Positions 8,648 through 23,782 of a stretch of DNA of 37,169 nucleotides are shown here, one piece after another. Each line of letters starts with the position of its first letter. Position 1 is the stretch's first letter. Source of the stretch: Oscillospiraceae bacterium (GTDB lineage: Bacteria; Bacillota; Clostridia; Oscillospirales; Oscillospiraceae); contig SVKQ01000015.1 of assembly GCA_015068325.1 (NCBI GenBank), positions 292,703 through 329,871 on the forward strand. The letters run 5' to 3'. Both the position numbers and the translations under genes were made by a program. The notes beneath the pieces were generated by a model, which saw nothing but the letters and a program-made list of their open reading frames with translations, made no database searches and had not been told where the DNA came from.

Positions 8648-9934
8648 TTAAACAGTTGTGGCAGACAGGTAGGTGTTGCCCTGCAGGTTGTGCCCGCCCA
8701 TGATGCCGTGGATCTCCAGCAGCAAGGTGCCGTCGGGCTTGATGGAGTCCACATTGCCGCCGGTAACGCGCTCCACTTCCTTCAGCTCGCCCAGTATGCG
8801 GTCCATCTTGGGCAGCAGGAGGGTGGCGTTGCTGTTGCCGGTGGAGACGATGGCATTGGCCTCGGTGACCACGTCGGGCAGGGACTCAGACATGCCGTCG
8901 GTACCGGCATCCTCATTGGTGATGATGACAGTCTTGACGCCGCGCTTCTCCAGCCCGCGGCACACGTGCATCAAGTCGGTGGTGGGGTTACCGAAGCCCT
9001 CCTGGGATATGATGGCCGCCTCGGCGCCCAACTCGTCCGCCGCCAGGCGGACGGACATCATGATGTCGCGCTGCTTCTCCTTCAGGGTGACCATCAGCGG
9101 GTTGAGCACGATGCCCACGAAGTTCAGGTCCACACCGTGGCGGGCCCACAGCGCCTTGATGACCGCGTTGTTCAGATGGTGATACGTGGTGGTCTTGGAA
9201 CCGGGAGAGACACAGTTGCCGCTGACAACGGCTCCGTCGAAAAACTCGGTGGGGGACATGATGGTGGGCACCAGCTGCTTGGCGTCGCGGCCGTAGAAAT
9301 AGGTGTCGTGGAGCAGACCCTGGGCCATGCAGTTGCAAACATACACCACCTTGGGCAGATCCGGATACTGGGCGCCCCGCTCGGCGGCACTGGGCCAGTG
9401 GTACTGCTCCGACTCGTACTCGGTGGCGGTCAGGGCGGTCTCGCCCAGCCACTTGGCGGCCTTCAGGCCCGCCATGCGCACGGTCTCCTCATGCTCGTGA
9501 GGGTCCACGTCCGCCCGCTTGGTCAGGTGCAGCACGATGTTGTTCAGCCGGGAAAAGAGCGTATACCTGGCGGCCGGACCGCTCATGTCGATAAGCCCTT
9601 CCTGGAAGCCCACGATGGGTCCCGTGGTCACCACGGCGCAGCCCTTCAGCACATAAGTGACGCCGGAGCCGGCCTGGGGCACCTCCGTGCCGAAAATGCC
9701 GGGAAAAATGTCGCCCTCCGGCTTGGCCCGGGGCTCGATCACGTCCTTTACCGGCAGGATGCGGCAGGACTCGCCCGGCTTGGCCAGATCGACCTTGACC
9801 GCGATGATTCTGGGATCCTCCAGAAGCAACTTCTTCAGTCCGGCCTCGTCCACCGTCAGGACGCCGTCTGTCAGGCTGTTCCTGTCGCCCAGGACAACAT
9901 CGCGGACCTGGACGTTGCGCAGTTCAAGATCCAT
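8648..9934 (-). CDS. grdE: Glycine reductase component B precursor GrdE (alpha and beta subunits)
   Basis: Proprotein of protein B, 428 residues. It is cleaved before Cys241 in VVSGN-CVSPGS, where family members generate the pyruvoyl group that binds the amino group of the substrate as a Schiff base. The sequence around YHHLNN and EEGFGNPTTDL-like blocks matches the family. ATG at 9934 has AAGGGGGT upstream. It is the first gene of the operon proper, with its own promoter and a GTATAC palindrome upstream; grdB starts 17 nt after its stop. Paralogues GrdG and GrdI serve sarcosine and betaine, so glycine specificity rests on context. Confidence 0.94.
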   Translation of the reverse strand: MDLELRNVQVRDVVLGDRNSLTDGVLTVDEAGLKKLLLEDPRIIAVKVDLAKPGESCRILPVKDVIEPRAKPEGDIFPGIFGTEVPQAGSGVTYVLKGCAVVTTGPIVGFQEGLIDMSGPAARYTLFSRLNNIVLHLTKRADVDPHEHEETVRMAGLKAAKWLGETALTATEYESEQYHWPSAAERGAQYPDLPKVVYVCNCMAQGLLHDTYFYGRDAKQLVPTIMSPTEFFDGAVVSGNCVSPGSKTTTYHHLNNAVIKALWARHGVDLNFVGIVLNPLMVTLKEKQRDIMMSVRLAADELGAEAAIISQEGFGNPTTDLMHVCRGLEKRGVKTVIITNEDAGTDGMSESLPDVVTEANAIVSTGNSNATLLLPKMDRILGELKEVERVTGGNVDSIKPDGTLLLEIHGIMGGHNLQGNTYLSATTV

Positions 9935-10061: not shown

Positions 10062-10079
10062 AAAATTGTATACAATTTT
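10062..10079. promoter_or_regulatory. 18-bp perfect palindrome, probable GntR-family operator upstream of grdE
   Basis: AAAATTGTATACAATTTT is a perfect palindrome centred 71 bp upstream of the centre of the grdE -10 box. The core TTGTATACAA resembles sites bound by FCD-type GntR regulators. Near-identical copies lie upstream of ald and yedE and between the DMT and gntR genes. Its position above the -35 favours activation. Confidence 0.7.
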
Positions 10080-10098
10080 TCTTATAAAGCGGTCCTTT

Positions 10099-10470
10099 TC
10101 ACCGATCCGAAAAGACGTTTTCCACCAGATCACAGTCGATCATCTGATAATCCAGCAGGACAGACGGTGCCATCCGCGTCCGGTCGGGCAGGGTGAACTT
10201 GTCCGTCACAGTCAGGGCATCGGAGAAAATACAGCACTCCTCCCAGTCCGGCGCGCCCGCCTCCGCCGACAGGACCACCGTCCGGTAGGGCGTCTCATGG
10301 GGGCGCAGGCTGCCGTAGAGCGGATGGTTGCACAGCCGGTGGCCGATATAGACCAGATCGCGCGCGCGTACCAGCACATCGCGATAAGTGTCCTCCTCCC
10401 GGAGGCGCACCTCACCCCGTCCGGTGAAGCGCCGGGCGGCCATGGGATTGTTGGTCACAATGAGATACAT
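10099..10470 (-). CDS. grdX: GrdX family protein
   Basis: A 123-residue protein of the GrdX family, of unknown biochemical role, usually encoded at the front of glycine reductase operons. Family-like features are the MYLIVTNNP start, the central GHRLCNHPLYGSLRPHETPY block, and a C-terminal LLDYQMIDCDLVENVF. No signal peptide or membrane segment is visible. ATG at 10470 has AAAGGAG upstream. Unusually, the gene starts only about 18 nt after the terminator of the tRNA-Sec gene and no promoter is visible between them, so it probably depends on read-through. It ends 20 nt before the palindrome upstream of grdE. Confidence 0.88.
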   Translation of the reverse strand: MYLIVTNNPMAARRFTGRGEVRLREEDTYRDVLVRARDLVYIGHRLCNHPLYGSLRPHETPYRTVVLSAEAGAPDWEECCIFSDALTVTDKFTLPDRTRMAPSVLLDYQMIDCDLVENVFSDR

Positions 10471-10487
10471 AGGCGCTCCTTTACACG

Positions 10488-10525
10488 ATAAAAAATCGCC
10501 CCAACAGTTCTCTGTTGGGGCGATT
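10488..10525 (-). terminator. Rho-independent terminator after tRNA-Sec
   Basis: Stem AATCGCCCCAACAG / CTGTTGGGGCGATT, 14 bp with a 4-nt loop, followed on the minus strand by a T6 run (ATTTTTTATC). It begins 2 nt after the tRNA CCA and ends just ahead of the grdX ribosome binding site. Confidence 0.92.
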
Positions 10526-10526
10526 C

Positions 10527-10623
10527 TGGCGGAAGTATGTGGGAATCGAACCCACCCAGGCAGCTGTTCACCACCAACACTGGTTTTGAAGACCAGGGGG
10601 CACACCAGAACCCATCTACTCCC
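10527..10623 (-). tRNA. selC: tRNA-Sec (anticodon TCA)
   Basis: 97-nt selenocysteine tRNA. The anticodon arm is CTGGT-CTTCAAA-ACCAG with TCA in the loop, there is a long variable arm (GTTGGTGGTGAACAGCTGCC region), T arm GTGGG-TTCGATT-CCCAC, and an encoded CCA end after discriminator G. The acceptor pairs GGGAGTA with TACTTCC (one G-U pair); the eighth pair of the bacterial 8-bp acceptor appears to be a G-A mismatch. It follows selB by about 100 nt and has its own promoter and terminator. Confidence 0.97.
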
Positions 10624-10658
10624 AGATCGGCCGGTCCGGAAAGCCTTGGCAAGACCAC

Positions 10659-10687
10659 TCTATACCATAAATACGGCAAAAAAGCAA
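10659..10687 (-). promoter_or_regulatory. Promoter of tRNA-Sec
   Basis: TTGCTT (10687-10682), 17-bp spacer, TATAGA (10664-10659) preceded by TATGG, about 36 bp before the tRNA 5' end. It allows tRNA-Sec transcription independent of selA-selB. Confidence 0.72.
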
Positions 10688-10726
10688 GGGTCATTTTCCA
10701 GACGGGCACCTCCTCCGCTCCGGCGG

Positions 10727-12637
10727 TCAGAGTGTTCCGATCACCACGCGGCTGTCGTCCACCTTTTTGGTGATCCTGTTCTTGTCGAAGTATTCCAGGA
10801 TCGCCAGCGCGTATTTCCGGGAGGTAGCCAGCAGGTCCCGGTACTGGGCCAGCGTGAAAGTGGGGTACTGCGCAAAGAAGTCCCGGCTCAGGCGGCAGAC
10901 CTCTTCATAGACCTCCCGGTGATAAAAGAGCTGAGGCGTCAGCATCACCAGCTCGCCGCAGGACACCAGATTCTCCAGCACCTTCCTGCAGTCGTCCCGT
11001 TCGTTGGGTTGGAAGGATGCGTACAGGTCGTCGGCGAAGGGCGTCTCCCGCCCGGCAGTGCGATACTGCTGCAATATCCGCTGGCGCAGCTGTTCCTGAC
11101 GACGCGTCAGCACCACGCGGAACGCCGGCAGGGCGCAGCGGTCCGCGATCTGAACGATAGTACCACCCCGGAGCATTACGGCCAGGATAGCGTCGGCTTC
11201 CTTCCGCTCCGTGTTCCGGAAGGCCTTCTGCCGCAGTGCGGCCACAGCCATGCCGGCGTGAAGCGGGTTGGCCCGGTGGTATTCCTCCAGCACCTTTTCC
11301 ACGCTCCGACAGGCATCCTGATAGATCGCGGCCGTGAGATACCGCCGCGGTAGCACCTCTACCAGCCGACCTGCGTTGACCTGATCGGCCAGCGCCGCGG
11401 CCAGTTCCTCCTCCGGACAGCTGCGGCGCTCCGCTAACTGCCCGGCCGAGGGCAGGCGATAGCCATACTCCCCCACCAGCTGCACCAGCTGCTGGTCAGC
11501 GGAGCCGGATTCCCGGATCCGCAACTCCTCCAGCACGGCGGGCTGGTTGCGCTTGCGGCGGGGCGGGCAGTCGTCCAGCACCACACCGCCGCCGATGGTC
11601 TCCAGCGGCGAATAGAAGCGAATCACAAACCGGTCGCCCCGTTTGGCCGCGACGTTTTCCGTCATGCGCAGCTGGGCATAGCAGGACTGCCCCGGCTCCA
11701 GCGCGTCCCGGTCCAGCAGCACCGCCTTGCACAGCAGCGTGCGGGATCCATGGTAAAAGTGGACGGTGGATCCGCTCTGGATCACGCGGCCCGAGTCCTT
11801 CAGGTTGGTCAGCTTCACATCCAGCATGCGGGTCAGCCGCAGACTGCCCGGCTTGCTGAGCACATCGCCCCGCTGGATGGCATCCCGCCGCAGGCCGGCC
11901 AGATTCACCGCCACCCGCTGCCCGGCATAGGCGCCGGTCACCGACTCGTTGTGGACCTGCAGCGTGCGGACCTTGGCCGTCTCGCCGGAGGGCATGATCT
12001 CCACCGTGTCGCCCACGGAGAGGTTTCCCTCGATCATGGTGCCGGTGACCACCGTGCCGAACCCGTCCTTGGAGAACACCCGGTCCACCGGCAGGCGGAA
12101 GGGAATCTGCTCGTTGCGGGCAGCCACCTGGCCCACCATCTGCTGCAGCTGCTGCCGCAGCGCGGCGACGCCCTCGCCGGTGTAAGACGACACGGCCAGC
12201 ACCGGCTTGCCCTCCAGGAACGTGCCCCTCACATGCTCGGCCACATCGTCGCGGACGATGTCCAGCCATTCCGGCTCCACGGTGTCAATCTTGGTGATGA
12301 CCACCACGCCGTCACGGATGCCCAGCAGGGACAGGATGTTCAGATGCTCGATGGTCTGAGGCATGAAGCCCTCGTCGGCAGCCACCACCAGCATGGCCAG
12401 ATCGATGCCGCCGGCACCGGCCAGCATGTTCTTGATGAATTTCTCGTGGCCCGGCACATCCACGATGCCGGCCCGGGTACCGTCGTCAAAGGTGATGTAG
12501 GCAAAACCCAATTCGATGGTGATGCCCCGCTTCTTCTCTTCGATGAGACGGTCGGTGTCGATGCCCGTCAAGGCCTTGATCAGCAGGGTCTTGCCGTGGT
12601 CCACGTGGCCGGCGGTGCCGATGATCACGTGGCTCAT
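10727..12637 (-). CDS. selB: Selenocysteine-specific elongation factor SelB
   Basis: GTPase that brings Sec-tRNA to UGA codons marked by a SECIS hairpin. 636 residues. EF-Tu-like GTPase motifs: P-loop GHVDHGKT at 10-17, DVPGHE at 60-65, TKID at 115-118; then beta-barrel domains, and a C-terminal winged-helix region that in SelB binds the SECIS. Its ATG (12637) overlaps the selA stop codon in an ATGA, so the two are translationally coupled. The clients in this window are grdA and grdB. Confidence 0.97.
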
Positions 12638-14016
12638 GGCAGGACCTCCGCCGCCGCTTCGGCAATATACACAAAGTCTGCGGGATCGATGGTGCGTACA
12701 TCCAGCAGATACTGTTCCGCCGAAATACGTCCGACGATGGGTCTTTCTCTCCGCCGCAGCGCCTCCTCCAGCGCGTTGACGCTCATCCTCCCGCCGGGCA
12801 GGACGGCTACGGCCCAGGTGGGCAGCAGCTGTGTGGGCACGGAGCCTCCTCCCACCGGGCTCTCCTCTGCTGTCACTTCAGCCTCCACGCCGCGGCGCAG
12901 CAGCGCCTGACGCAGCTCCTCAGCGGCGGCGCGCAGCGTCTCCCGTGGTGTGGCCAGCATGGCCAACACCGGGATCTCGCGCTCCGCCCGCTCCGTATCC
13001 TGATACGCACTCAGCGTGGCACTCAGCGCCGCCAGCGTCATCTTGTCCACCCGGAGGGCTCGGGCCAGCGGATGCTTTTTCATCCGGTCAATATATTCCT
13101 TTTTACCCAGGATCACACCGGCCTGGGGCCCGCCCAACAGCTTGTCGCCGCTGAAGCTGACCACGTCTACCCCGGCGCGGATGCTGTGCTGCACAGTAGG
13201 CTCGTCGTGAATACCGTAGCGCTCCAGGTCTACCAGCGAGCCGCTGCCCAGATCCTGTACCACAGGCAGACCCGTCCGGCGGCCCAGCGCCACAATGTCC
13301 TCCAGCGACAGCGACTCGGTAAAGCCCACGATGCGGTAGTTGCTGGTGTGCACCTTCAGCAGGGCACGGGTGTCCTCGTTGATGGCCCGCTCGTAGTCAT
13401 ACAGATGGGTCTTGTTGGTGGTGCCCACCTCACGCAGGCGGCAGCCACACAGCTCCATGACGTCCGGCACCCGGAAGGAGCCGCCGATCTCCACCAGCTC
13501 GCCCCGGGAGGTGATGACCTCGCCGCCCTGGGCCAGTGTCCCCAAGATCAGCATCACCGCCGCGGCGTTGTTGTTGACTACCATGGCGCTCTCCGCACCC
13601 GTCAGGCGGCAGAGCAACTGCTCCACATGGATGTGGCGGGAGCCGCGGCAGCCGGCCCCGGGATCATACTCCAGCGTGGAGTAGCTGCGGGCGATATCAC
13701 GCACCGCGTCGGCCGCCCGCTCCGACAGGCAGCCGCGGCCCAGATTGGTGTGCAGCACCACGCCCGTGCCGTTGACCACCGGCCGCAGGGATGGGATGGA
13801 GTCCCGGTGGGCCAACGCGCAGACCCGGCCACACAGCTCCTCCATGGCGGGGATCTCCGCCACCTGTCCGGCCAAGATGCCGGCGCGCAGTTCCTCCAGC
13901 ACGCGGCGGATCCACTCCGTTACGGCGGCGGGGGTATGCCGGCTCTTCAGTTCAGCGATGGAAGGGTCGTCGAAAAACTCTGTGACTTTGGGGATGTTCC
14001 GCAGCAGCTGACGCAT
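12634..14016 (-). CDS. selA: L-seryl-tRNA(Sec) selenium transferase SelA
   Basis: PLP enzyme that converts Ser-tRNA(Sec) to Sec-tRNA(Sec) using selenophosphate. 460 residues. The PLP lysine is Lys292 in [27 protein letters not shown] near residues 81-94 is also typical. The ATG at 14016 ([10 protein letters not shown]) has AGAGGAGG upstream and matches the family N-terminus; a longer in-frame start would run into the preceding transporter's stop region. It lies 32 nt after the DMT transporter with no promoter visible between them, so it is probably part of a DMT-DMT-selA-selB transcript. Confidence 0.97.
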
Positions 14017-14048
14017 GGGGCAGCCCTCCTCTCTGTTTTCTCTCAATC

Positions 14049-15005
14049 TCACGCGCCGATTTTTCCGACCGCGCCGGCCCCGTCACGGCGGCGCTGCAGC
14101 AGCACGTGCAGGATGTTCACGCAGTAGATGCCCGCCACCACCAAGAAGGTGGCAAAGCCCTGCAGCAGGGAAAACGGCTCATGCAGGAACAACACGCCGC
14201 TGACCACTGAGATCACCGTGGTCAGTCCGGCAAAGGCAGAGGTCCGGGTCGTGCCCAGGATCGTCAGCGACCGGTTGGCCAGCAGGAACGCCAGCGTGGT
14301 GCAGCCCAGGCCCAGATATGCGGCCGAGAGCAAAAACTCGCCGTTGGTGAAGGGCATCATCAGATATGCAGAGAAAGTTCCCGCCCTCAGGTTCTCCACC
14401 GTCGCGCAGACGGTGAATACCACCGTGCCAGTCAGGCACATGAAATAGGTCTTTTCAATAGGGCTGTACTGCGACAGCGACTTGTTGATGACAAAATACG
14501 CGCCCTGGCTCAGCACCGCGCCCAGCAGCAGGATATAGCCCAGCAGGTTGAAGGTGGGCGTTCCCTCCTTCAGCAGCACGATGATGACGATGCCCGCCGT
14601 GGAGGCCATGATGCCGGCCACCTGGATCCAGGACGGATTCTCCCGCAGAAAAATGGCCGTGGCGATGACCGTGATAATGGGGATGCAGGCGATGATGGTG
14701 CCGCTCTCCGAAGCAGACGTCAGGCTGACGCCGTATGTCTCCAGGATGAAATACGCCGCCGGTGAAAAGACCGTCATTTTCAGCAGCGTCCAGGGCGACT
14801 TCGTACGGAAGTCGATGTGCAGCACACCCACCAGCATCAGCAGTGTCATAGCCACAGCACCCAGCAGGAAGCGCCAGCTCAATAGGGTAAAGACAGATAC
14901 CTCTCCCACGATTCTCTTGGTAAACATGTAGCTGTGTCCAAACAGCATGGAACTGCAGCAGGAGCCCAGCATGGCGCTGATCTCGCGCCAGGTCAGTTTG
15001 CCCAT
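14049..15005 (-). CDS. EamA/DMT-family transporter (copy 1, next to selA)
   Basis: A 318-residue membrane protein with about ten hydrophobic segments and the duplicated EamA layout (motifs ETYGVSLTSASESGTI in the first half and FLHEPFSLLQG in the second). ATG at 15005 has AAGGTGAGT upstream; a GTG at 15017 is less well placed. It is about two thirds identical by eye to the neighbouring 15081-16037 gene, so the pair arose by tandem duplication. The DMT superfamily exports or imports amino acids and other metabolites, but the substrate cannot be read from sequence. Position upstream of selA, and control by a site shared with grd and yedE, suggest an amino acid or a selenium/sulfur compound; this is inference. 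Confidence 0.87.
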   Translation of the reverse strand: MGKLTWREISAMLGSCCSSMLFGHSYMFTKRIVGEVSVFTLLSWRFLLGAVAMTLLMLVGVLHIDFRTKSPWTLLKMTVFSPAAYFILETYGVSLTSASESGTIIACIPIITVIATAIFLRENPSWIQVAGIMASTAGIVIIVLLKEGTPTFNLLGYILLLGAVLSQGAYFVINKSLSQYSPIEKTYFMCLTGTVVFTVCATVENLRAGTFSAYLMMPFTNGEFLLSAAYLGLGCTTLAFLLANRSLTILGTTRTSAFAGLTTVISVVSGVLFLHEPFSLLQGFATFLVVAGIYCVNILHVLLQRRRDGAGAVGKIGA

Positions 15006-15080
15006 AGGATCACTCACCTTGTTTATAAGATTCAGATTCAGACAATATGGGATATGCGCGGTCAGCGGCCGGCCGCAGCC

Positions 15081-16037
15081 CTACCCGTTGTTTTCGGCCT
15101 GGAGGCCGACTCCGCCGCGATGGCGCAGCCACAGCACGTGCAGGATATTCACGCAGTAGATGCCCACCAGCACCAGACCGGTGGCCACGCCCTGCAGCGT
15201 GGAGAACGGCTCATGCAGAAACACCACGCCGCTGATCACTGAGATCACCGTGCTCAGCCCCGCAAAGGCGGAGGCGGGAACGGGTCCCAGAATGGTCACC
15301 GACCGGTTGAGCAGCAGAAAGGCCAGCGTGGTGCAGCCCAGCCCCAGGTACACGGCTGAGAGCAGGAAGGAGCCGTCGGTAAAGGGCAGCTTAACGTAAT
15401 CGATGAAGCTGCCGCTGCGCAGGCTCTCCACTGCGGCGCAGACGGTAAAAAGCACCGCGCCGGTCAGGCATGTGAAATATGTTTTTTCCACCACGGTGTA
15501 CTGGGTCATCTGCCGCCCGGTGATCACATAGCCTATGTCACAGACCACCGCACCCATCAGCAGCACATATCCCAGCGCACTGAAGGTGGGCGTGGTGCCC
15601 TTGAGCAGTACGATGATGAGGATGCCCGTTGTGGAGATCAGCACGCCGGTCACCTGAACCCAGCTGGCCTTCTCCCGCAGGATGACAGCGGAGGCGATGA
15701 CGGAAGCGATGGGGATGAGGGCGATGATCGTCCCGCTCTCCGAGGCGGAGGTGAGGCTGATGCCGTACGTCTCCAGGATATAGTAGGCCGCTGGCATGAA
15801 GATCACCATGCGCAGCAGAGGCCAGGGCGACTTGCTGCGGAAATCGATGCGCATCACGCCCACCATCACCAGCAGCGTCATGAAGACCGCGCCGATCAGA
15901 AAGCGCCAGCTCAAAAGGGCGAACACCGTCACCTCTCCCACGATCCGCTTCGTGAACATGTAGCTGTTGCCGAACATCAGTGAGCAGCAGCAGGACCCCA
16001 ACATGGCGCTGATCTCGCGCCAGGTCAGTTTGTTCAT
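15081..16037 (-). CDS. EamA/DMT-family transporter (copy 2)
   Basis: A 318-residue paralogue of the 14049-15005 gene, same length, with about ten membrane segments. The first helix has an unusual Cys cluster (AMLGSCCCSLMFGNSY). ATG at 16037 is preceded by GAGGTGAAT. It is the first gene of the probable DMT-DMT-selA-selB unit and is transcribed divergently from the gntR gene at 16217. A TTGTGTACAT operator-like site sits at its expected transcription start, suggesting repression. The 75-bp gap to copy 1 contains the palindrome GCGGCCGGCCGC but no convincing promoter. Confidence 0.87.
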   Translation of the reverse strand: MNKLTWREISAMLGSCCCSLMFGNSYMFTKRIVGEVTVFALLSWRFLIGAVFMTLLVMVGVMRIDFRSKSPWPLLRMVIFMPAAYYILETYGISLTSASESGTIIALIPIASVIASAVILREKASWVQVTGVLISTTGILIIVLLKGTTPTFSALGYVLLMGAVVCDIGYVITGRQMTQYTVVEKTYFTCLTGAVLFTVCAAVESLRSGSFIDYVKLPFTDGSFLLSAVYLGLGCTTLAFLLLNRSVTILGPVPASAFAGLSTVISVISGVVFLHEPFSTLQGVATGLVLVGIYCVNILHVLWLRHRGGVGLQAENNG

Positions 16038-16064
16038 GGGCCATTCACCTCAAAAGAACAAGAA

Positions 16065-16074
16065 TTGTGTACAT
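16065..16074. promoter_or_regulatory. Operator-like site TTGTGTACAT between divergent DMT and gntR genes
   Basis: One mismatch from the TTGTATACAT found upstream of ald and yedE. It lies immediately after the -10 box of the DMT promoter and 83 bp upstream of the gntR -10 box, so one site could repress leftward and influence rightward transcription. Confidence 0.55.
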
Positions 16075-16075
16075 G

Positions 16076-16103
16076 ATTTTAACACATATTTCCGATAAAA
16101 CAA
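16076..16103 (-). promoter_or_regulatory. Promoter of the DMT-DMT-selA-selB unit
   Basis: TTGTTT (16103-16098), 16-bp spacer, TAAAAT (16081-16076) on the minus strand, about 40 bp before the ATG at 16037. Confidence 0.6.
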
Positions 16104-16126
16104 CCCCCCTGCGGCACAAAAAGTCG

Positions 16127-16155
16127 TTGCGGCAGCGTGCCAGATCGTGTATAAT
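16127..16155 (+). promoter_or_regulatory. Promoter of the first gntR gene
   Basis: TTGCGG (16127-16132), 17-bp spacer, TATAAT (16150-16155). The -10 lies inside an imperfect inverted repeat ATCGTGTAT-AATG-ATATACGAT (16144-16165, one mismatch), a possible autoregulatory site. Confidence 0.7.
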
Positions 16156-16216
16156 GATATACGATAGCGAAGAAACAGCCGAGCCGGCCCGACACAGGAA
16201 AACAGAGGATCGTGGA

Positions 16217-16858
16217 ATGATGAAAAAAGAAACCCCCAGAGGCATTGTTTATCAGCATATTAAAAAGCAGATCCTGACAAAGGCGCTGTTTCCCGGCAAC
16301 CGGATCGTGGAGGAGGACGTGGTGCGCGAAACCGGCGTCAGCCGGACCTCCATCCGACCCGCTCTGCTGCAGCTGCAGTATGAGGGGTTGGTGGAGATCG
16401 TGCCCAACCGGGGCGCCTTCGTGGCCAAGCCCACCAAGGAGGACCTCCTGCAGGTCTATCGGATGCGCCGGGTCCTGGAATGCGGCGCGCTGGAGGAAGC
16501 CATGGAAAAGCGGACAGATGCGCAGCTGCAGGCCATGGAGCGGAATCTGGAGGCACAGTCTGTATTGACCCAGCACTATAGCCGTCAGGAATATGTGACG
16601 CTGAACCACCAGTTTCACTGGCTGATGGTACAGATGACCGGCAATGCCTACTATGAGAAGTATCTCAACGAGATTTACAACCGGATCAACACATTCCTGT
16701 TCTTCTATGACAATGCGGTGGACAACAACTCTCTGACCAGCCATTTGATGATCTATGAGGCGCTGCGGGACCGCGACCTGGCAAAGGGTCTGGCCGGCAT
16801 CCGCTTGGACGTGGACATCGCGCTGGACGACCTGCAGGCCACCGAACTGACCAACTGA
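16217..16858 (+). CDS. GntR-family regulator with FCD domain (first of tandem pair)
   Basis: 213-residue transcription factor. The N-terminal winged helix-turn-helix (about residues 5-75, with IVEEDVVRETGVSRTSIRPALLQLQYEGLVEI) is followed by an all-helical FCD ligand domain. In FCD domains the motif before the central helix is normally DxxFH; here it is NHQFH, so a usual metal-ligand Asp may be Asn. ATG at 16217 is used because GAGG lies 8 nt upstream; an adjacent ATG at 16220 is possible. It is about 50 nt upstream of a second, similar gntR and divergent from the DMT genes. It is a candidate regulator of the TTGTATACAA sites in this window. Confidence 0.9.
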   Translation: MMKKETPRGIVYQHIKKQILTKALFPGNRIVEEDVVRETGVSRTSIRPALLQLQYEGLVEIVPNRGAFVAKPTKEDLLQVYRMRRVLECGALEEAMEKRTDAQLQAMERNLEAQSVLTQHYSRQEYVTLNHQFHWLMVQMTGNAYYEKYLNEIYNRINTFLFFYDNAVDNNSLTSHLMIYEALRDRDLAKGLAGIRLDVDIALDDLQATELTN

Positions 16859-16910
16859 GGGACGGCCGCCAACTGACCCGCGCATCCCGACGAAAGGAGA
16901 TCGCTCTTTT

Positions 16911-17549
16911 ATGAGAGACACCAGCCCCGCCGATGTGGCGTATACTTATATCAAAAATCAGATCGTCACCCGCGCCATGTACCCCGGCACAAAGCTGGTG
17001 GAGGAGGACATCGTGCGGGAGACGGGCGTCAGCCGCACGCCGGTGCGCTCGGCGCTGATGCGCCTTGCCTATGAAGGGCTGGTAGTACAGGAGCCCAACC
17101 GGGGTGCCTATGTGGCCAAGCCCACGGCCACGGACCTGCGTCAGGTATATGAGACCCGGGCCATCCTGGAGGCGGGCGCTTTCCGCCTGGCAGTCCGCCG
17201 CCGCAGCGAGGAGAGTGTACGCCGCATGGAGGAGAACCTGCGGCAGCAGGAGCAGCTGGAGAAGCTGTTCAATATGTCCGAATATGCCACCTTAAACCGG
17301 GAGTTCCACTGGCTCATCGCCATGGAGGCCCAGAACGCCTATCTGGAGAAATATCTCAACGAGCTGTACAACAAGGTATCGACCTACCTTCTGTTTTGGG
17401 ATGACTCCACCACCAATGACGCTTCGCTGGATATCCACCGCCGGATCTATGAGGCCTTCCGGGACAGAGACGAGGAAAAGGGGCTGGCCGCGCTGATGGA
17501 GGACATCCAGCTGGCGGAGGACAGTCTCCGCCAGGCCCAGCAGCTGTGA
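16911..17549 (+). CDS. GntR-family regulator with FCD domain (second of tandem pair)
   Basis: 212-residue paralogue of the preceding regulator: winged helix with LVEEDIVRETGVSRTPVRSA around residues 24-43, then an FCD domain that again shows NREFHW instead of DxxFH. ATG at 16911 follows AAAGGAGATCGC. The two genes are probably co-transcribed from the 16127 promoter and end at the terminator at 17563. Its position just upstream of ald, with a TTGTATACAT site between, suggests it controls ald and the selenium and Stickland genes. The effector is unknown; alanine, glycine or a related amino acid is a guess. Confidence 0.9.
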   Translation: MRDTSPADVAYTYIKNQIVTRAMYPGTKLVEEDIVRETGVSRTPVRSALMRLAYEGLVVQEPNRGAYVAKPTATDLRQVYETRAILEAGAFRLAVRRRSEESVRRMEENLRQQEQLEKLFNMSEYATLNREFHWLIAMEAQNAYLEKYLNELYNKVSTYLLFWDDSTTNDASLDIHRRIYEAFRDRDEEKGLAALMEDIQLAEDSLRQAQQL

Positions 17550-17562
17550 TCTGTTCCACCCA

Positions 17563-17589
17563 AGCCGCACGCACCGCGTGCGGCTTTTT
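17563..17589 (+). terminator. Rho-independent terminator after the gntR pair
   Basis: Perfect 10-bp stem AGCCGCACGC / GCGTGCGGCT with a 3-nt loop, followed by TTTT. A second hairpin without a U-run (GCGCCGCCG / CGGCGGCGC, 17597-17621) follows closely. Confidence 0.93.
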
Positions 17590-17646
17590 GGTCGCCGCGC
17601 CGCCGTTTCCGCCGGCGGCGCAGCGCAATTGAGGCATAATTCAAGA

Positions 17647-17656
17647 TTGTATACAT
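17647..17656. promoter_or_regulatory. Operator-like site TTGTATACAT upstream of ald
   Basis: Matches the core of the grdE palindrome in 9 of 10 positions. Its centre is 95 bp upstream of the centre of the ald -10 box, in the non-coding stretch between the gntR terminator and the ald promoter. Confidence 0.6.
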
Positions 17657-17720
17657 TCACCATACGGGCTCTCCCTTTTTCGGCATTCCTACGAAAATAG
17701 CGGCACCGGGGCGCCGATTC

Positions 17721-17749
17721 TTGACAAGGGACAGGGAAAAAAATACAAT
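17721..17749 (+). promoter_or_regulatory. Promoter of ald
   Basis: Consensus TTGACA (17721-17726), 17-bp spacer, TACAAT (17744-17749), leaving a leader of about 90 nt before ATG 17844. Confidence 0.85.
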
Positions 17750-17843
17750 GCAAGGTGTCACGGAAGGCGCCGAACGGTACCGGATATGCAGGCGTTCAGC
17801 GGCTTCTGACAAGAGCGTATTTGAAGGAAGGAAGGAAAGCACA

Positions 17844-18962
17844 ATGGTAATTGGTGTTCTGAAAGAGGTCAAGCCCAACGAGTACCGCGTTTCCGCCGTG
17901 CCCGCCACGGTCATGGAGATCGTCCGCCACGGCCACACCGTCTATGTAGAGACGGGTGCCGGCGTAGGCAGCGGCTACAGCGACGCCGAATATGAGGCCG
18001 CCGGCGCCATCATTGCCGACACGGACACCGTGTGGGAAAAGGCCGACCTCTATTACAAGGTCAAGGAGCTGTTTCCCCAGGAGTACAAGTGGATGGGCCC
18101 GGACAAGATCCTGTTTACCTACATCCACTCCAACGCCCACCCTGAAGAGACTGACGTACTGCTCAGCAGTCACGTCTCCGCCGTGGCCTATGAGGATGTG
18201 CCCGATGAACAGGGCCACTTCCCCATGCTGCGGCCCATGAGTGAGCTGGCCGGCAAGGGCGGCTTCCTGGCGGCCCTGCACTATGCCCAGGCTGTCAACG
18301 GCGGCCCCGGCAAACTGCTGGCCAATGTGGCCGGTGTGGAGACCCCTATCGTCACCTGCCTGGGCTGCGGCAACATCGGCATCGGCGTGGCCGAGCTGGC
18401 CGCCGGTCTCGGCAACGAGGTCCGCATCTTGGATGTGAACATGAACGTCATGCTGGAGGCCAAGAAGTACCTGCCCCACAATGTGTCCTTCATGATCTCC
18501 AACCGCGCCAACCTGGAAAAGTGCCTGCGGGAGACCGACGTACTGGTCAACGGCATCCAGTGGGCCAAGGACCGCAAGGATCACATCGTCTATCGCGAGG
18601 ATCTGAAGCTGATGAAGCCCGGCGCCCTGCTGATCGACGTGGCCTGCGACGACAACGGCGCCATCGAGACCTGCCGCTCCACCACCCACGACGATCCCGT
18701 CTACTATGAAGAGGGCGTCCTCCACTACTGCGTGGACAACATCCCCTCTGCCTTCTCCCAGACCGCGTCTGTCACGCTGGCCAACTCCACCCTTCCCTAT
18801 CTGCTGCAGATGGCCGACAAGGGCTTCAAGAAGGCCATTGAGGACAACCGCCTGCTGCGCAAGGGCATGACCTGCTATAACGGCAAGCTGACCCTGCAGG
18901 AGACCGCCCTGAAGCAGAACCGCGAATGGACCGACGCCGAGGAACTCATCAAGGTCTGGTGA
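17844..18962 (+). CDS. ald: Alanine dehydrogenase family protein
   Basis: NAD-dependent oxidative deamination of L-alanine to pyruvate and ammonia, the electron-donor half of a Stickland pair. 372 residues, the usual Ald length. Seen: KEVKPNEYRV at the N-terminus, Lys74 and His95 where B. subtilis Ald has its pyruvate-binding Lys and catalytic His, PMSELAGK, the Rossmann motif GCGNIGIG near residues 172-179, and the IDVACDD Asp. Divergent points: IHSNAHP instead of LHLAA, and DNIPSAFSQTAS instead of the usual NMPGAVPRTST. A relative acting on another amino acid therefore remains possible. ATG follows GGAAGGAAGG. Confidence 0.82.
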   Translation: MVIGVLKEVKPNEYRVSAVPATVMEIVRHGHTVYVETGAGVGSGYSDAEYEAAGAIIADTDTVWEKADLYYKVKELFPQEYKWMGPDKILFTYIHSNAHPEETDVLLSSHVSAVAYEDVPDEQGHFPMLRPMSELAGKGGFLAALHYAQAVNGGPGKLLANVAGVETPIVTCLGCGNIGIGVAELAAGLGNEVRILDVNMNVMLEAKKYLPHNVSFMISNRANLEKCLRETDVLVNGIQWAKDRKDHIVYREDLKLMKPGALLIDVACDDNGAIETCRSTTHDDPVYYEEGVLHYCVDNIPSAFSQTASVTLANSTLPYLLQMADKGFKKAIEDNRLLRKGMTCYNGKLTLQETALKQNREWTDAEELIKVW

Positions 18963-18997
18963 GCCCGGCAGCCCGGCAAATACACGAAAACAAGCGA

Positions 18998-19023
18998 GAG
19001 GCCCTGCCAACAGGCAGGGCCTC
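18998..19023. terminator. Bidirectional terminator between ald and the tusA-like gene
   Basis: 11-bp stem GAGGCCCTGCC / GGCAGGGCCTC with a 4-nt loop, extended by AGCG/CGCT. On the minus strand it is followed by TCGCTTGTTTTCG, so it serves the tusA-like gene best; it also stops ald read-through. Confidence 0.8.
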
Positions 19024-19044
19024 CCGCTTATCATACAGTGTTGT

Positions 19045-19248
19045 TTACTTCTTCAGCGTCAGGGTGTAATCCCCGCCGCCCTCGGCCACGGAGACCTCAT
19101 AGCCCTGCAGGCGGGCATAGCGGGTGATGTTCTCCACACAGACCATGCTGTCCACCTGCACCTGCAGTTCGGCAGGCGCGTTCTTCTTGACTTCCTTCTG
19201 CACCATGACAACGGGGATGGGGCAGCTCATACCTCTGGCATCGATCAT
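19045..19248 (-). CDS. TusA-family sulfurtransferase-like protein paired with YedE
   Basis: A 67-residue protein with the TusA/SirA fold signature: RGMSCPIPV with Cys9-Pro-Ile-Pro12. In TusA the Cys carries persulfide; with YedE it probably handles selenium or sulfur (inference). It corresponds to the N-terminal domain of YedF without the DsrE-like C-terminal part. ATG at 19248 with AAGGAGG upstream lies 1 nt beyond the yedE stop, so translation is coupled. A second full-length YedF is encoded at 23888. Confidence 0.9.
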   Translation of the reverse strand: MIDARGMSCPIPVVMVQKEVKKNAPAELQVQVDSMVCVENITRYARLQGYEVSVAEGGGDYTLTLKK

Positions 19249-19249
19249 G

Positions 19250-20347
19250 TTATTTTGCCTCCTTCTTGTTCAAGGTGTTGACCAGGGAGATGATCAGCAG
19301 CACCACGAAGCCGATGGCCACGGCAATCTTACCGTTGGTGCCGATGCCGCCGGCGGAGTAGACATCATCCTTCACAGCGGCGGCAGCGCCGGCCAGCTTG
19401 AAGTTGTGGGCAAACGCGGCACCCACGACCATGCCCAGCACGGTCACGGCGGAGTCGCCGTTGCCCTCGCCGGCCAGGATCAGCTGGCGCAGCGGGCAGC
19501 CGCCCAGCAGCACGCTGCCCCAGCCCACCAGCACCATGCCCAGCAGATTCCACAGCTGGCTGGCGTGGGCGATGGGCTGCAGATAGGTGGAGAAGCCCTT
19601 GAAGTTGCCCAGAATCAGGTTGCCCACCAGCACCGTCAGGAAGATGGCGGCAAAACCGGACAGCAGACTGAAATCGCCGAACATGACGGCGTCGCGCATA
19701 CCACCCACCATGCAGATACGGGACTTCTGAGCCAAGGCTCCCACGACCAGGGCCACCACCAGCGCCAGCAGTACGGAGGCGTGCTTGGAGCCGGGGCCGC
19801 TCTCGGAGAAGGCGAAGATGGCGGGCACCGCCAGGAAGAGGACCAGCAGGACGATCATGATACCGGGCATGGCGAAGCCTTCGGTCCGGGCCACCTCATA
19901 GCTGCGCTTGAGGGAGAATCCCTTTTTGATAAAAAGGACGCCGATGCCGATGCCGATAGCAAAGCCGGCCAGACCCACAAAGGCGTTCAGGTCGCCGCCG
20001 CCCATGCGGATGACCATACGCAGTGGGCAGCCCAGGAACACCAGCGCACCCACCATGACAAAGAAGCCCAGGATAAAACGGGTGGCCGGAGAGGAGCCGG
20101 CACGGGCCTTGAACTCCTTGGTGGCCACGGACATGATGGTGGAGCCCAGCACCAGGCCGATGATCTCGGGCCGGACATACTGGACGACCTCCGCCGTGTG
20201 CAGTTTGGTGGCACCGGCGATGTCACGCAGGAAGCAGGCGATGCAGAAGCCCATGTTGGCGGGGTTGCCGAAGGCGGTCAGCACCAGCGCAGCGACACCT
20301 ACCACCACGCCGGTCACCAATACCCACGGATTGATTCTCTTGGACAT
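19250..20347 (-). CDS. yedE: Selenium metabolism membrane protein YedE (probable selenium transporter)
   Basis: A 365-residue polytopic membrane protein of the YeeE/YedE family, the selenium-linked branch (YedE/FdhT). About ten hydrophobic segments are seen. Conserved Cys positions include Cys35 and Cys38 (GFCIACF), Cys107 in FLGCPLRM, Cys212 (RICMVGGMRD) and Cys284 in GGCPLRQL, which in this family line the sulfur or selenium conduit. ATG at 20347 has AAAGGAGAAA upstream. It is followed by a TusA-like gene in the same operon and preceded by a strong promoter and a GTATAC site. A transport role is inferred from family and context. Confidence 0.93.
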   Translation of the reverse strand: MSKRINPWVLVTGVVVGVAALVLTAFGNPANMGFCIACFLRDIAGATKLHTAEVVQYVRPEIIGLVLGSTIMSVATKEFKARAGSSPATRFILGFFVMVGALVFLGCPLRMVIRMGGGDLNAFVGLAGFAIGIGIGVLFIKKGFSLKRSYEVARTEGFAMPGIMIVLLVLFLAVPAIFAFSESGPGSKHASVLLALVVALVVGALAQKSRICMVGGMRDAVMFGDFSLLSGFAAIFLTVLVGNLILGNFKGFSTYLQPIAHASQLWNLLGMVLVGWGSVLLGGCPLRQLILAGEGNGDSAVTVLGMVVGAAFAHNFKLAGAAAAVKDDVYSAGGIGTNGKIAVAIGFVVLLIISLVNTLNKKEAK

Positions 20348-20404
20348 AATGATTTTCTCCTTTCTCTCAGGCGGTCTTTCTCATATACCCGCCCGTGGTT
20401 ATAC

Positions 20405-20433
20405 ATTCTAAAATATCACGAATGCCCTGTCAA
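20405..20433 (-). promoter_or_regulatory. Promoter of yedE-tusA
   Basis: Consensus TTGACA (20433-20428), 17-bp spacer, TAGAAT (20410-20405). The spacer contains TCGTGATATT, a 10-mer also present in the yqeC-selD operon promoter region. Confidence 0.88.
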
Positions 20434-20462
20434 GAGAAAACCGGATAAATTTCAACCAAATT

Positions 20463-20472
20463 TTGTATACAT
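20463..20472. promoter_or_regulatory. Operator-like site TTGTATACAT upstream of yedE
   Basis: Same 10-mer as upstream of ald. Its centre is 60 bp from the centre of the yedE -10 box, between the selD stop codon and the yedE -35. Confidence 0.62.
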
Positions 20473-20479
20473 TTTCCGT

Positions 20480-21517
20480 TCAGTGCAAAAAGATCCGCTT
20501 GCCGCCCCGGTAGGCCTCCACCGTGCCGATGCGCTGGGCGGAGGGCACCGTCTCCTGCAGCTCGGCAAACAGGGCGTCGGCATCTGCGGGATCCACGGCG
20601 ATCAGCAGACCGCCGGCAGTCTGGGGGTCGTAGAGCATGTCCTGCTTGGCCAACTCCACCGTGCCCGGGTCCACATGGGGCTCGGCAAAGCTGCGGTTGC
20701 GGTACATGCCCTCCGGCAGCAGACCCATCCGCGCCAGCTCCAGCGCCTCGCCGATCAGGTCGATGTCATCCACGTGCAGGTGGATCTCGGTGTCGCTGCC
20801 CTGGGCCATCTCACAGGCGTGGCCCAATAGGGCAAAGCCGGTCACGTCTGTGCAGGCGTGGACCCGGTACTTGACCATGGCGTCCCGTCCGGCCCGGTTC
20901 AGGGTGGTCATCAGCTGTGTGGCCAGGGCCATCGCTTCGGCGGAGGCCATCTCCACCTTGGCAGCGGTGGTCAGGATACCGATACCCAGCGGCTTGGTCA
21001 GCAGCAGCACGTCGCCGGGCTTCGCGCCGCTGTTGGTCAGTACCCGATCGGGGTGCACGAAGCCGGTAACGGCCAGGCCGTACTTGGGCTCCTCATCCAG
21101 AATGCTGTGGCCGCCGGTGATGATGACGCCCGCCTCATAAGCCTTCTCATAGCCGCCCCGCAGGATCTCGTGGACAGCCTCTTTGGGCAGACCCGCCGGC
21201 ACCGCCATGATGTTCAGCGCCAGCTTGGGCTCGCCGCCCATGGCGTACACGTCCGACAGGGCGTTGGTGGCTGCGATGGCGCCGAAAGTATAAGGATCAT
21301 CGGCGATGGGCGGGAAGAAGTCCACTGTCTGCACCAGTGCCAGGTCATCTGTCACCTTATATACGCTGGCGTCATCACTCTTGTCGAAACCCACCAGCAG
21401 ATTGGGGTCGCGCAGCACCTTCAGGTCACCCAGCAGCTGAGCCAGCACGCCGGCACCCACCTTGGCCCCGCAGCCGGCGCAGTTGGCCAGCTTGGTCAGT
21501 TTCACTTCATTTTCCAT
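20480..21517 (-). CDS. selD: Selenophosphate synthetase SelD
   Basis: Makes selenophosphate, the selenium donor for SelA and for selenium-containing molybdenum hydroxylases, from selenide and ATP. 345 residues. Cys16 and Lys19 in CAGCGAK align with the E. coli Cys17/Lys20 pair, so this is a Cys form, unlike the Sec-containing SelD of some clostridia. Further family features are the TDDLALVQTVDFFPPI ATP and metal region and the ITGGHS and ACTDVTGFALLGH motifs. ATG at 21517 lies inside the yqeB end (11-nt overlap). It is last in the DUF3343-yqeC-yqeB-selD operon, with no clear terminator before yedE. Confidence 0.97.
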   Translation of the reverse strand: MENEVKLTKLANCAGCGAKVGAGVLAQLLGDLKVLRDPNLLVGFDKSDDASVYKVTDDLALVQTVDFFPPIADDPYTFGAIAATNALSDVYAMGGEPKLALNIMAVPAGLPKEAVHEILRGGYEKAYEAGVIITGGHSILDEEPKYGLAVTGFVHPDRVLTNSGAKPGDVLLLTKPLGIGILTTAAKVEMASAEAMALATQLMTTLNRAGRDAMVKYRVHACTDVTGFALLGHACEMAQGSDTEIHLHVDDIDLIGEALELARMGLLPEGMYRNRSFAEPHVDPGTVELAKQDMLYDPQTAGGLLIAVDPADADALFAELQETVPSAQRIGTVEAYRGGKRIFLH

Positions 21518-22307
21518 CCCTCTGTCCTCCCATAAAATGCATGATCGCCTCCAACACGCCGCCGCCGATGGACAGTGCCTTGTCAGAGCAGGTATAACAG
21601 TATTTTGCCTGGCCGCGGGGATCCACGTCGCCGGCCTTCATGCCCCGGTGTGTCATGACGCCGTCGGCCAGCAGGCCCCGCAGCACGCCGCCGATGGTAC
21701 ACGCCATGGGCTGGCCGTCTACGTATCCCACCACGTCGCCGACGGCCACCATATCGCCGATCTGCCGGATTCCCACAAAGGGTCCGTCAGCCGGCGCGCG
21801 CAACACCCGTTCGCCTGCAAAACCGCCGACGTAGCCGGGTATGGCCGTATTGGGCAGCGGGCTGCCCTGGTAGATGACGCGGCCCAGCGTGTGGCCCCGC
21901 ATGGTCTCCACTGCCGCGTGGCAGTCCCTCCCGGCTGTAAATCCGGGCCCAACACCCACCACGATGGGTGCGTCGGTGATCCGGGTACCCAGATTGCGCT
22001 TGGCCAGGATGGCGTCCACCAGCGCATCGGGTTGCAGCACCCGGCGGCAGATGCACTCCGGGTCCACCAGCACCGGCAGGATGCCCTGTGCCAGCAGCGC
22101 CAGCGCCTCGTCGGCGCCGTGTGCGCGCCGGGCCGTCACCTCTTCTACCGTGTGCTCACCCCGCACGATCGCCTCGGAAAAGGCCACCGTGCGTCGGATG
22201 GCCGTGGGGTACTCCAGATCGGTCATCACCACACTGAAGCCGCTGCGCCACAGGCGCATCGCCACGCCGCTGGCCAGATCGCCGGCCCCGCGGATCAACG
22301 TAAGCAT
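21507..22307 (-). CDS. yqeB: YqeB/EF2563-type selenium-dependent molybdenum hydroxylase system protein
   Basis: A 266-residue accessory protein with an N-terminal Rossmann-like segment (LIRGAGDLASGVAMRLWRSG), a central GPGFTAGRDCHAAVETMRGH block and a C-terminal DVDPRG...YCYTCSDKALSIGGG, as in the EF2563 family. The family is tied by comparative genomics to selenium-requiring molybdenum hydroxylases and may act in cofactor maturation; the reaction is not known. ATG at 22307 with GAGAGGAGA upstream overlaps yqeC by 13 nt, and its stop overlaps selD. The likely client here is the xanthine dehydrogenase homologue at 1-2456. Confidence 0.93.
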   Translation of the reverse strand: MLTLIRGAGDLASGVAMRLWRSGFSVVMTDLEYPTAIRRTVAFSEAIVRGEHTVEEVTARRAHGADEALALLAQGILPVLVDPECICRRVLQPDALVDAILAKRNLGTRITDAPIVVGVGPGFTAGRDCHAAVETMRGHTLGRVIYQGSPLPNTAIPGYVGGFAGERVLRAPADGPFVGIRQIGDMVAVGDVVGYVDGQPMACTIGGVLRGLLADGVMTHRGMKAGDVDPRGQAKYCYTCSDKALSIGGGVLEAIMHFMGGQRDGK

Positions 22308-22981
22308 GTGTATCTCCTCTCACACAGGCTGCCTGCCGCCACCGGGCAGGTCAGATATCGCGCCAGCTCCAGCGCCGCCGACTCATTGTCCGGGCGCTCC
22401 ACCTGGTTGATGTAGACCCGGTCTCCCAACCCCTCGGCTGTGATGACCCGTGCCGCCAATTCCGGGGTGACGGCGTCCTCCGCCCTTGCCCCCGCCAGCG
22501 CTGCATAGAGCTCCGGCCGGTGGCAGACCTCCCCTATGGGGTGGCCGAAGCCGCCGGCTCCCACCACTAATATCGTCTGCTCCGCGTTCTCCGGGATCAC
22601 CGGCTCCCATGGCGCATGGGCCTTCAGCGGCAGCATGTGGGCGCCGTCGGCCTCCACGATCACATAGTCCGCCAACTGCGCCAGCGCCGAAAAAGACAGC
22701 TCCGGCGCGCCCAGCTTGCCGTTCTCCCGCGAAATGCCCGCGCAGACGGCACCGTATCGCTCCAGCGCAGAGCGCACCGCCTCCGCTCCGGCATCCGTCA
22801 GCACGGGATACTGCTCCGGCCGGCATATCCGGGTGGACGTGCACAGCAGCACGGTGCCGCGGCTCCGCAGCTCCTCCGCCAGCGTGTACAGCAGCGTGGT
22901 CTTTCCGCCGCCGCCGATCAGCGCGGTGACACCGCGCCCGACCTGCAGCAGCGGCGCGATCTCCATCCGCTCCCCGCTCAT
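22295..22981 (-). CDS. yqeC: YqeC, selenium-dependent hydroxylase accessory protein
   Basis: A 228-residue P-loop protein: TALIGGGGKTTLL near residues 19-31 is the nucleotide-binding loop, and YVIVEADGAHMLPLKAH resembles the acidic switch region of the YqeC family. It is thought to act with YqeB in maturing selenium-dependent molybdenum hydroxylases; the exact reaction is unknown. ATG at 22981 overlaps the DUF3343 stop as ATGA. A longer in-frame reading upstream is an artefact over the DUF3343 gene. The tight four-gene overlap shows one transcript and coupled translation. Confidence 0.93.
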   Translation of the reverse strand: MSGERMEIAPLLQVGRGVTALIGGGGKTTLLYTLAEELRSRGTVLLCTSTRICRPEQYPVLTDAGAEAVRSALERYGAVCAGISRENGKLGAPELSFSALAQLADYVIVEADGAHMLPLKAHAPWEPVIPENAEQTILVVGAGGFGHPIGEVCHRPELYAALAGARAEDAVTPELAARVITAEGLGDRVYINQVERPDNESAALELARYLTCPVAAGSLCERRYTCLR

Positions 22982-23214: not shown

Positions 23215-23268
23215 GGTGTGGGTTCTCCTGCCGGCGAAATTCTCATAACAATATCACGAGTTCTCATT

Positions 23269-23297
23269 ATTATAGCAAAGCAGATCCCCCTTTTCAA
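23269..23297 (-). promoter_or_regulatory. Promoter of the DUF3343-yqeC-yqeB-selD operon
   Basis: TTGAAA (23297-23292), 17-bp spacer, perfect TATAAT (23274-23269) on the minus strand. TCGTGATATT (23259-23250) follows the -10, in a position where a bound protein could block initiation. Confidence 0.88.
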
Positions 23298-23317
23298 GCC
23301 GTATTTCGCCGTTTCAT

Positions 23318-23346: not shown

Positions 23347-23385
23347 TGTATCAGCCGTTCCACATTTATCGAAGGGGGCTTTACC

Positions 23386-23751: not shown

Positions 23752-23782
23752 TCCACTTCCTCCGGCCTTGGGGAAAATCTGC

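Follow-up and report, generated by a model that had tools for sequence, protein, structure and literature searches.

A ten-base palindrome as candidate operator of two VanR-like GntR regulators at reductase, alanine dehydrogenase and selenium genes in an Oscillospiraceae bacterium

The window analysed here is a stretch of 37,169 nucleotides from an Oscillospiraceae bacterium (assembly GCA_015068325.1, contig SVKQ01000015.1, positions 292,703 to 329,871 of the forward strand). It carries a cluster for a selenocysteine-containing reductase of the Grd type, an alanine dehydrogenase gene (ald), genes of selenium metabolism and two adjacent genes for GntR-type regulators, and the ten-base palindrome TTGTRTACAW recurs between them. 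The minus-strand order is dmt1-dmt2-selA-selB, the selenocysteine tRNA gene (tRNA-Sec), grdX and the Grd cluster, and gntR1, gntR2 and ald run in the opposite direction. The divergon thus contains two DMT genes, and tRNA-Sec and grdX stand between selB and the grdE site. The gene yedE is accompanied by a small gene and selD; the name selD and some of the grd names come from sequence and place. The genes that matter for the argument are:

5462-5938, minus strand: grdA, selenoprotein (U44)
7323-8630, minus strand: grdB, selenoprotein (U347), with SECIS_4 at 7552-7589
8651-9934, minus strand: component B subunit of the grdE type; it opens the reductase cluster, which closes with a grdD-type gene ending at 2654
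10099-10470, minus strand: grdX (NF038093)
10527-10623, minus strand: tRNA-Sec (Rfam search)
10727-12637, minus strand: selB, named from sequence and place; homologues in the same order in the relatives G001 and G008
12634-14052, minus strand: selA (TIGR00474), longest open frame, true start maybe further in
14049-15005, minus strand: dmt2, EamA/DMT transporter, 70% identical to dmt1
15081-16037, minus strand: dmt1, EamA/DMT transporter
16217-16858, plus strand: gntR1, GntR-FCD regulator (family-model search)
16911-17549, plus strand: gntR2, GntR-FCD regulator (family-model search)
17844-18962, plus strand: ald, alanine dehydrogenase (PF05222, PF01262; TIGR00518 at 350.8 bits, below the cut-off of 391.85)
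19250-20347, minus strand: yedE, putative selenium transporter (TIGR04112)

A motif scan located TTGTRTACAW at four distinct places in the window and nowhere else in it. All four are intergenic (gaps grdX-grdE, dmt1-gntR1, gntR2-ald and selD-yedE), in agreement with a preliminary description of this DNA made from the sequence. They are listed here with one presumed remnant:

10066-10075, minus strand: grdE palindrome TTGTATACAA, a perfect palindrome within AAAATTGTATACAATTTT (10062-10079)
16065-16074, plus strand: dmt1/gntR1 palindrome TTGTGTACAT
17647-17656, plus strand: ald distal palindrome TTGTATACAT
17739-17748, plus strand: AAAAATACAA, on the -10 box of ald and 92 bp away from the distal palindrome; presumably the decayed remnant of a proximal site that relatives retain
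20463-20472, minus strand: yedE palindrome ATGTATACAA (letters of the yedE strand)

The window is 62% G+C; the number of places expected from shuffling is 0.03 (standard deviation 0.17), and the observed count was reached in none of 100 shuffles. A weight matrix built from 22 sites ranked the four at the top of the window, with 34.2, 26.9, 20.5 and 19.0 bits against 14.4 bits for the next match, a ranking that is partly circular because the 22 training sites include these four. The whole genome (G000; 1.96 Mb, 21 contigs) holds nine distinct sites, four of them inside 10.4 kb of the window, and simulation gave a probability of 4.5e-5 that any four of nine random sites would share 10.4 kb. Other sites of this genome (L001, which lies within a coding frame, L003, L004 and L005) were recorded with their neighbours, and for L004 with the promoter position, with no claim of regulon membership; at position 5003 of L004, TTGTGTACAA lies on the -10 box of a TTGACA-17-TACAAT promoter before a glutathione-peroxidase-like gene (named from sequence). 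Weaker matrix matches in the window stand before a GntP-like transporter gene (27601-27610, 13.6 bits) and before pyrG (25795-25804, 14.4 bits), both likewise named from sequence.

The two regulators are of the FCD type that the preliminary description had placed in the middle of the region. Models for the GntR winged helix-turn-helix (PF00392) and for the FCD domain (PF07729) scored above cut-off in both GntR1 and GntR2, which are 51% identical. An AlphaFold2 model of GntR2 (mean predicted local distance difference test score, pLDDT, of 90.4) contains six helices between residues 73 and 209, as in Atu1419 of Agrobacterium fabrum and not seven as in the FadR group, and is a structural match to solved VanR members. 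By domain content and by this model, which covers GntR2 alone, GntR1 and GntR2 are FCD-GntR regulators of VanR-like fold. Residues N129, H133 and H176 are invariant, and D198 takes the place of the third His of Atu1419 in 20 of 20 aligned GntR1/GntR2-type proteins, so that the set is Asn-His-His-Asp and not the zinc site of Atu1419 (Asn and three His); for the D198 column the alignment to Atu1419 is weak and that to 7xp0 clearer. The metal or ligand of these proteins may differ from that of Atu1419. In a tree of the regulators, in which 7 of 17 inner branches are weakly supported, members of the GntR1 clade (support 92/99) come from exactly those four genus genomes in which grdE has a close orthologue; the GntR2 clade (95/89) takes in most proteins encoded next to ald, and its members mostly stand beside ald or beside an Asp/Glu-racemase gene and ald; the ald-adjacent GntR of G008 falls outside both. 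Since GntR1 accompanies the grd and sel genes and GntR2 accompanies ald, this distribution suggests a shared operator with divided sensing, in which the two proteins probably respond to different small molecules. The DMT pair and the GntR pair lie side by side (14049-17549), and both look as if they arose by tandem duplication on either side of a single divergent promoter region.

The recurrence of the palindrome was followed in samples of 32 genus and 300 family genomes. A close grdE orthologue is present in four of the 32 genus genomes, and all four carry the palindrome upstream (in G006 as TTGTATACGA); the 48% identical grdE-like gene of G008 does not, nor does any of 17 grdE-type loci outside the genus in the family sample, where a word within one mismatch was sought. 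At close ald copies the palindrome (at most one mismatch) occurs in four of six scored genomes (G000, G001, G008 and G018; absent from G024 and G012), and at distant copies in none of seven scored, an eighth having too little upstream DNA. Fisher tests gave p 0.067 for the close copies of ald and the same value for grdE compared with the outgroups; these tests, like the phasing and spacing results below, rest on predicted promoters and on orthologues of shared ancestry. The yedE site was found in two of four GntR-positive genomes (G000 and G006, not G008 or G018) versus none of 13 GntR-negative ones (p 0.044; upstream DNA sufficed for scoring at 17 of 19 loci), where GntR-negative means having no GntR2 match below E 1e-30, and such genomes do carry other FCD-GntR genes. 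Genome-wide enrichment of the motif was rejected as a test of the regulator because GntR-negative genomes hold such sites too. Recurrence of the motif beside grd, ald and yedE orthologues, a check asked for in the preliminary description, was seen.

Proteins of the GntR2 type occur in three of the 300 family genomes. A pattern-based scan of one genome each from 84,980 species returned 25 loci, of which 13 are close (39-65% identity). Five of these repeat genus genomes, and seven of the eight new ones carry the palindrome, a count that covers the close loci, the remaining twelve of the 25 (L084-L095) being distant; the one without is L082. The palindrome lies at ald and a divergent Asp/Glu-racemase gene in L072, at grdE in L081, and in the gap from gntR to a racemase gene that precedes ald in L073, L074, L076, L077 and L083; the L074 racemase frame breaks off after 135 residues, so that the racemase-ald operon is not intact there. 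All five gntR-racemase gaps contain a second TTGTAT exactly 12 bp after the palindrome start (L073 10716, L074 4136, L076 10701, L077 2335, L083 4723), as if two dimers sat side by side. In G108, a genome outside the genus, two of the three exact copies of TTGTATACAA flank its gntR, one of them preceding the gene only if the start is one of the two codons nearest the homology; the longest open frame would cover that site. Another G001 palindrome, located between grdA and grdC, lacks a good promoter. Neighbours of further sites were inspected in G001 (L040-L043, L045 and L046) with no claim of regulon membership, and were listed for sites in G006 (L048, L050-L052, L054), G007, G008 (L057), G014 and G024. 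Copies of TTGTATACAA/T likewise lie at the starts of more distant FCD-GntR genes (25-29% identical), or close to them (L062 5602; L067 4913 and 5062), and the palindrome seems to be shared among FCD regulators of the genus.

Where the sites lie relative to predicted promoters bears on how they might act. The promoters in the window are:

10025-9997, minus strand: grdE promoter TTGATT-17-TATAGT, 9 of 12 consensus bases
17721-17749, plus strand: ald promoter TTGACA-17-TACAAT, 11 of 12 consensus bases
20433-20405, minus strand: yedE promoter TTGACA-17-TAGAAT, 11 of 12 consensus bases
plus strand: gntR1 promoter TTGCGG-17-TATAAT, weaker

The preliminary description had called all four promoters good, which fits the first three and less so that of gntR1. 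Its distances from the -10 boxes (71 bp for grdE, 95 for ald, 60 for yedE and 83 for gntR) were reproduced exactly and correspond to palindrome centres at -80.5, -104.5, -69.5 and -92.5 relative to the predicted +1. The copy at 16065 does coincide with a dmt1 start, namely the predicted transcription start (-0.5), 28 bp before the ATG. Centres at grdE in relatives are at -81.5 (G001 and G008) and, one helical turn nearer, at -70.5 (G006); the yedE centre of G006 is at -71.5 and that of the BadF gene of G001 at -91.5. These eight upstream sites (four grdE, two yedE, gntR1 and the BadF gene) are phased, with R of 0.92 at 10.5 bp, for a set that omits the G008 ald site (-109.5), racemase promoters (-55.5 and -56.5), L081 grdE (-0.5), G001 grdC, the distant best promoters of G008 gntR2 (-141.5) and L081 gntR (-185.5) and all sites overlapping a start or -10 box. 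R falls to 0.71 with the ald distal sites and to 0.72 with one racemase value (-55.5), and for the four sites of the window alone phasing at 10.5 bp is not significant (p 0.16). The DNA between site and promoter at grdE is no more alike across species than shuffles. A search within 260 bp of the grdE and yedE promoters for a second site at a steady distance found none, and the idea of such a site was rejected. Class I activators such as CRP bind at upstream positions of this kind. The grdE and yedE sites hold activator-like positions (about -81 or -70), so that activation of both is likely, and the position of the dmt1 site fits repression; to this extent, by position only, the signs of control proposed in the preliminary description are retained.

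The arrangement at ald is different. At two promoters of G001 and in G008, L072 and G018 the ald -10 box is covered by a palindrome with at most one mismatch; the right half of that palindrome is TACAAT, spaced exactly 17 bp from the -35 box. A second site stands upstream by 92 bp (G001 and L072), 93 bp (G018) or 97 bp (G008); one of the G001 ald promoters has the proximal site alone. Across 15 pairs, the spacers that separate the two sites show no more similarity than shuffled DNA (z from -4.0 to 1.8), and therefore the distance rather than the sequence seems to be kept. The lac operators O1 and O3 form such a bridged pair. The pair at ald in relatives looks like looping repression and fits bridged operators of the sort proposed for Atu1419 (PMC7797058); the window looks to have kept the distal ald site and lost the proximal copy. 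The suggestion that ald is activated is accordingly weak and doubtful, as the relatives' operator covers the -10 box, usually with a partner 92-97 bp upstream, as for looped repression. G001 also contains a broken second ald copy (L038 1660-2779) and an intact one on a 4-kb contig (G001:C2), possibly an assembly artefact.

The Grd complex is of the glycine/sarcosine/betaine kind, and 'glycine reductase' is only a working name, because GrdB reaches none of the three substrate-level cut-offs: it scores 493.2 bits against the glycine equivalog TIGR01917 (cut-off 602.2), 516.7 against the sarcosine model (800) and 481.6 against the betaine model (775), and falls within the broad family TIGR01918. 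A fifth site of the genome precedes a double-cubane reductase gene followed by a gene for a Se/S-carrier (DUF3343), and the G001 site before the BadF gene is likewise followed by a double-cubane gene. Genome context has tied DUF3343 and the 2-hydroxyglutaryl-CoA dehydratase subunit and activase to selenium genes, and the same source, in the text available, suggests transport of selenium compounds by YedE, with export as a hypothesis (PMC5322559). The selenium link of the putative regulon is strengthened by this fifth site. Double-cubane genes as a general part of the regulon were rejected, as both G008 loci lack a site, unlike those of G000 and G001. At 3-2456 and 21507-24499 of the window lie a molybdenum-hydroxylase-like gene and genes of the yqeB/yqeC/yedF type, named from sequence, which we take to be as for selenium-dependent molybdenum hydroxylases.

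An Rfam gathering search of the window returned only tRNA-Sec and SECIS_4. No glycine riboswitch, or other Rfam riboswitch, was found in the grd and ald leaders: between 9900 and 20500 even matches at E≤1 comprised only tRNA-Sec and a sub-threshold small RNA match inside selB.

The nearest relatives outside the genus with a close grdE in the family sample, G108 (73%) and G317 (62%), have no palindrome there. Instead, both have a perfect TGGCAC-N5-TTGCT sigma-54 promoter at grdE (L136 and L137) and a sigma-54 activator gene directly upstream, with grdB and ald downstream; the clusters span 6364-15073 of L163 (G108) and 7945-15214 of L164 (G317), with two activator genes in G108 and one identified in G317. 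At grdE of the window the best -24/-12 match has two mismatches and lies 238 bp upstream, inside grdX; matches at grdE of G001, G006 and G008 have three to four mismatches, and the other 15 grdE-type loci of the family have no perfect sigma-54 promoter (best one mismatch). Loss of sigma-54 as the cause of this difference was rejected, since rpoN is present in G000, G001, G006, G018 and G024; it was not found in G008, which is 79% complete. G108 also has a transporter gene of the PF03553 Na+/H+-antiporter family before ald, and a G001 palindrome (L047) precedes another PF03553 gene, 30% identical.

According to the available portions of two reports, the grd operon of Clostridium difficile is not transcribed from a -24/-12 promoter (PMC7438776), and grdGF, of sarcosine metabolism, is assigned to the enhancer-binding protein (EBP) SarR (PMC6615313). 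Taken with the sister genera and the window, control of this reductase class therefore differs between lineages. Sigma-54/EBP control of Stickland genes by PrdR and SarR (PMC6615313, PMC7438776) concerns the same broad class of reductase and amino acid fermentation genes, whereas the window has sigma-A-like promoters and GntR palindromes. We tentatively raise a regulatory takeover, which we hold to be possible rather than likely: in this genus a duplicated VanR-type pair would have replaced the sigma-54/EBP control seen in sister genera at grdE-grdB-ald, placing reductase, electron-donor enzyme and selenium supply under one operator with two modes set by position, helix-phased activation (about -70, -81 and -92) and lac-like looping repression (92 bp, ald).

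The closest counterpart of the operator is that of Atu1419, a VanR-group FCD-GntR protein shown to bind ATGTATACAT (PMC7797058). As far as the accessible text of that report goes, the two systems share the ten-base palindrome NTGTATACAN, sites on -10 boxes, paired sites proposed to be bridged by a tetramer there and, judging from the DNA spacing, possibly so here, six C-terminal helices and conserved reading residues (Arg45/Thr46/Arg49/Gly66 against Arg42/Thr43/Arg46/Gly65); they differ in that Atu1419 represses hydroxycinnamate genes, has sites 190 and 109 bp apart and has the metal set Asn-His-His-His, and activator-like positions, seen here, receive no mention in that portion. FadR-subfamily regulons also have an AT-rich palindrome with TKGT/ACMA boxes (PMC4494728), but the gap between GT and AC is typically 3 nucleotides there and 2 here, a spacing that the quoted subfamily consensus allows; only 1 of the 634 regulators analysed in that source came from Clostridia. 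Among the open-access literature matches listed, none described a GntR regulator of glycine/sarcosine/betaine reductase or selenocysteine genes.

On balance we consider it probable that TTGTRTACAW is the operator of the neighbouring VanR-like FCD-GntR paralogues and unites a fermentation and selenium module (ald, the selenocysteine-containing Grd reductase, yedE, the DMT-DMT-selA-selB operon and gntR1), activating or repressing according to position. From the sites, their conservation, predicted-promoter positions, co-occurrence and the modelled fold we infer binding, the sign of control, looping and the ligands. One dimer would read each NTGTATACAN palindrome. Sites upstream of the -35 box on about one helix face (yedE near -70, grdE near -81, gntR1 near -92) would most likely activate in a class I-like manner, and those covering a start or -10 box (dmt1, and ald in relatives) would most likely repress. 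At ald, a tetramer likely bridged a pair of operators with 92-bp spacing in the ancestral form; the window retains only the distal operator. The existence of a selenium/Stickland regulon, proposed in the preliminary description, and its assignment to VanR-like GntR proteins appear well supported at the sequence level, as the motif recurs by grdE, ald, yedE and gntR in relatives, largely tracks these GntR proteins and matches a proved VanR-group operator. Three observations weigh slightly against this reading and against the takeover. The dmt1/gntR1 site has no counterpart within one mismatch at the corresponding promoters that were searched in G001, G006 and G008; the G006 ald gene, cut by a contig end and outside the six-genome table, has only a pair of two-mismatch words 92 bp apart and was counted as a miss; and no homologue of grdA, grdC or grdD was found in the 19-kb stretches of G108 and G317, whose clusters therefore differ in content from that of the window.

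The sign of control is the point at which a different account comes nearest. Were repression the sole action of the GntR proteins, at single operators or at looped ones, the grdE and yedE upstream sites would be auxiliary; Atu1419, which has the most similar operator, is reported to be a repressor, sites overlap a start or -10 box at the relatives' ald, dmt1, G108 gntR and L081 grdE, and the sigma-A promoters of grdE, yedE and ald look fairly strong without an activator. The lack of any steadily spaced second site at grdE and yedE, and upstream positions kept at four grdE (-80.5 to -81.5, one at -70.5) and two yedE promoters with shuffle-like grdE flanks, make pure repression rather unlikely. 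That another FCD-GntR protein of the genome binds the palindrome appears less probable still: the genome does encode four further weak relatives of GntR2, and other FCD-GntR genes of the genus (L062, L067) carry the palindrome near their starts, but gntR1 and gntR2 adjoin the sites, and across species GntR1 goes along with grdE, and GntR2 with ald. It is hardly credible that the palindromes have no operator role and reflect promoter sequence or AT-rich background, so that TTGTATACAAT, preceded at 17 bp by a -35 box, would just make a good promoter. The ald site of relatives does double as a -10 box, but the window is G+C-rich with few sites expected, none of the upstream sites is a -10 box, the positions persist even where the flanks are dissimilar, and the yedE site is absent from all 13 scored GntR-negative genomes.

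If operation by GntR1 and GntR2 is correct, regulators and an operator could be named for the coupling of an amino acid donor, a selenium-dependent acceptor and selenium supply in some gut and rumen bacteria. The related gene clusters, under sigma-54 and EBPs in one genus and under sigma-A and GntR proteins in another, would then offer a natural comparison.

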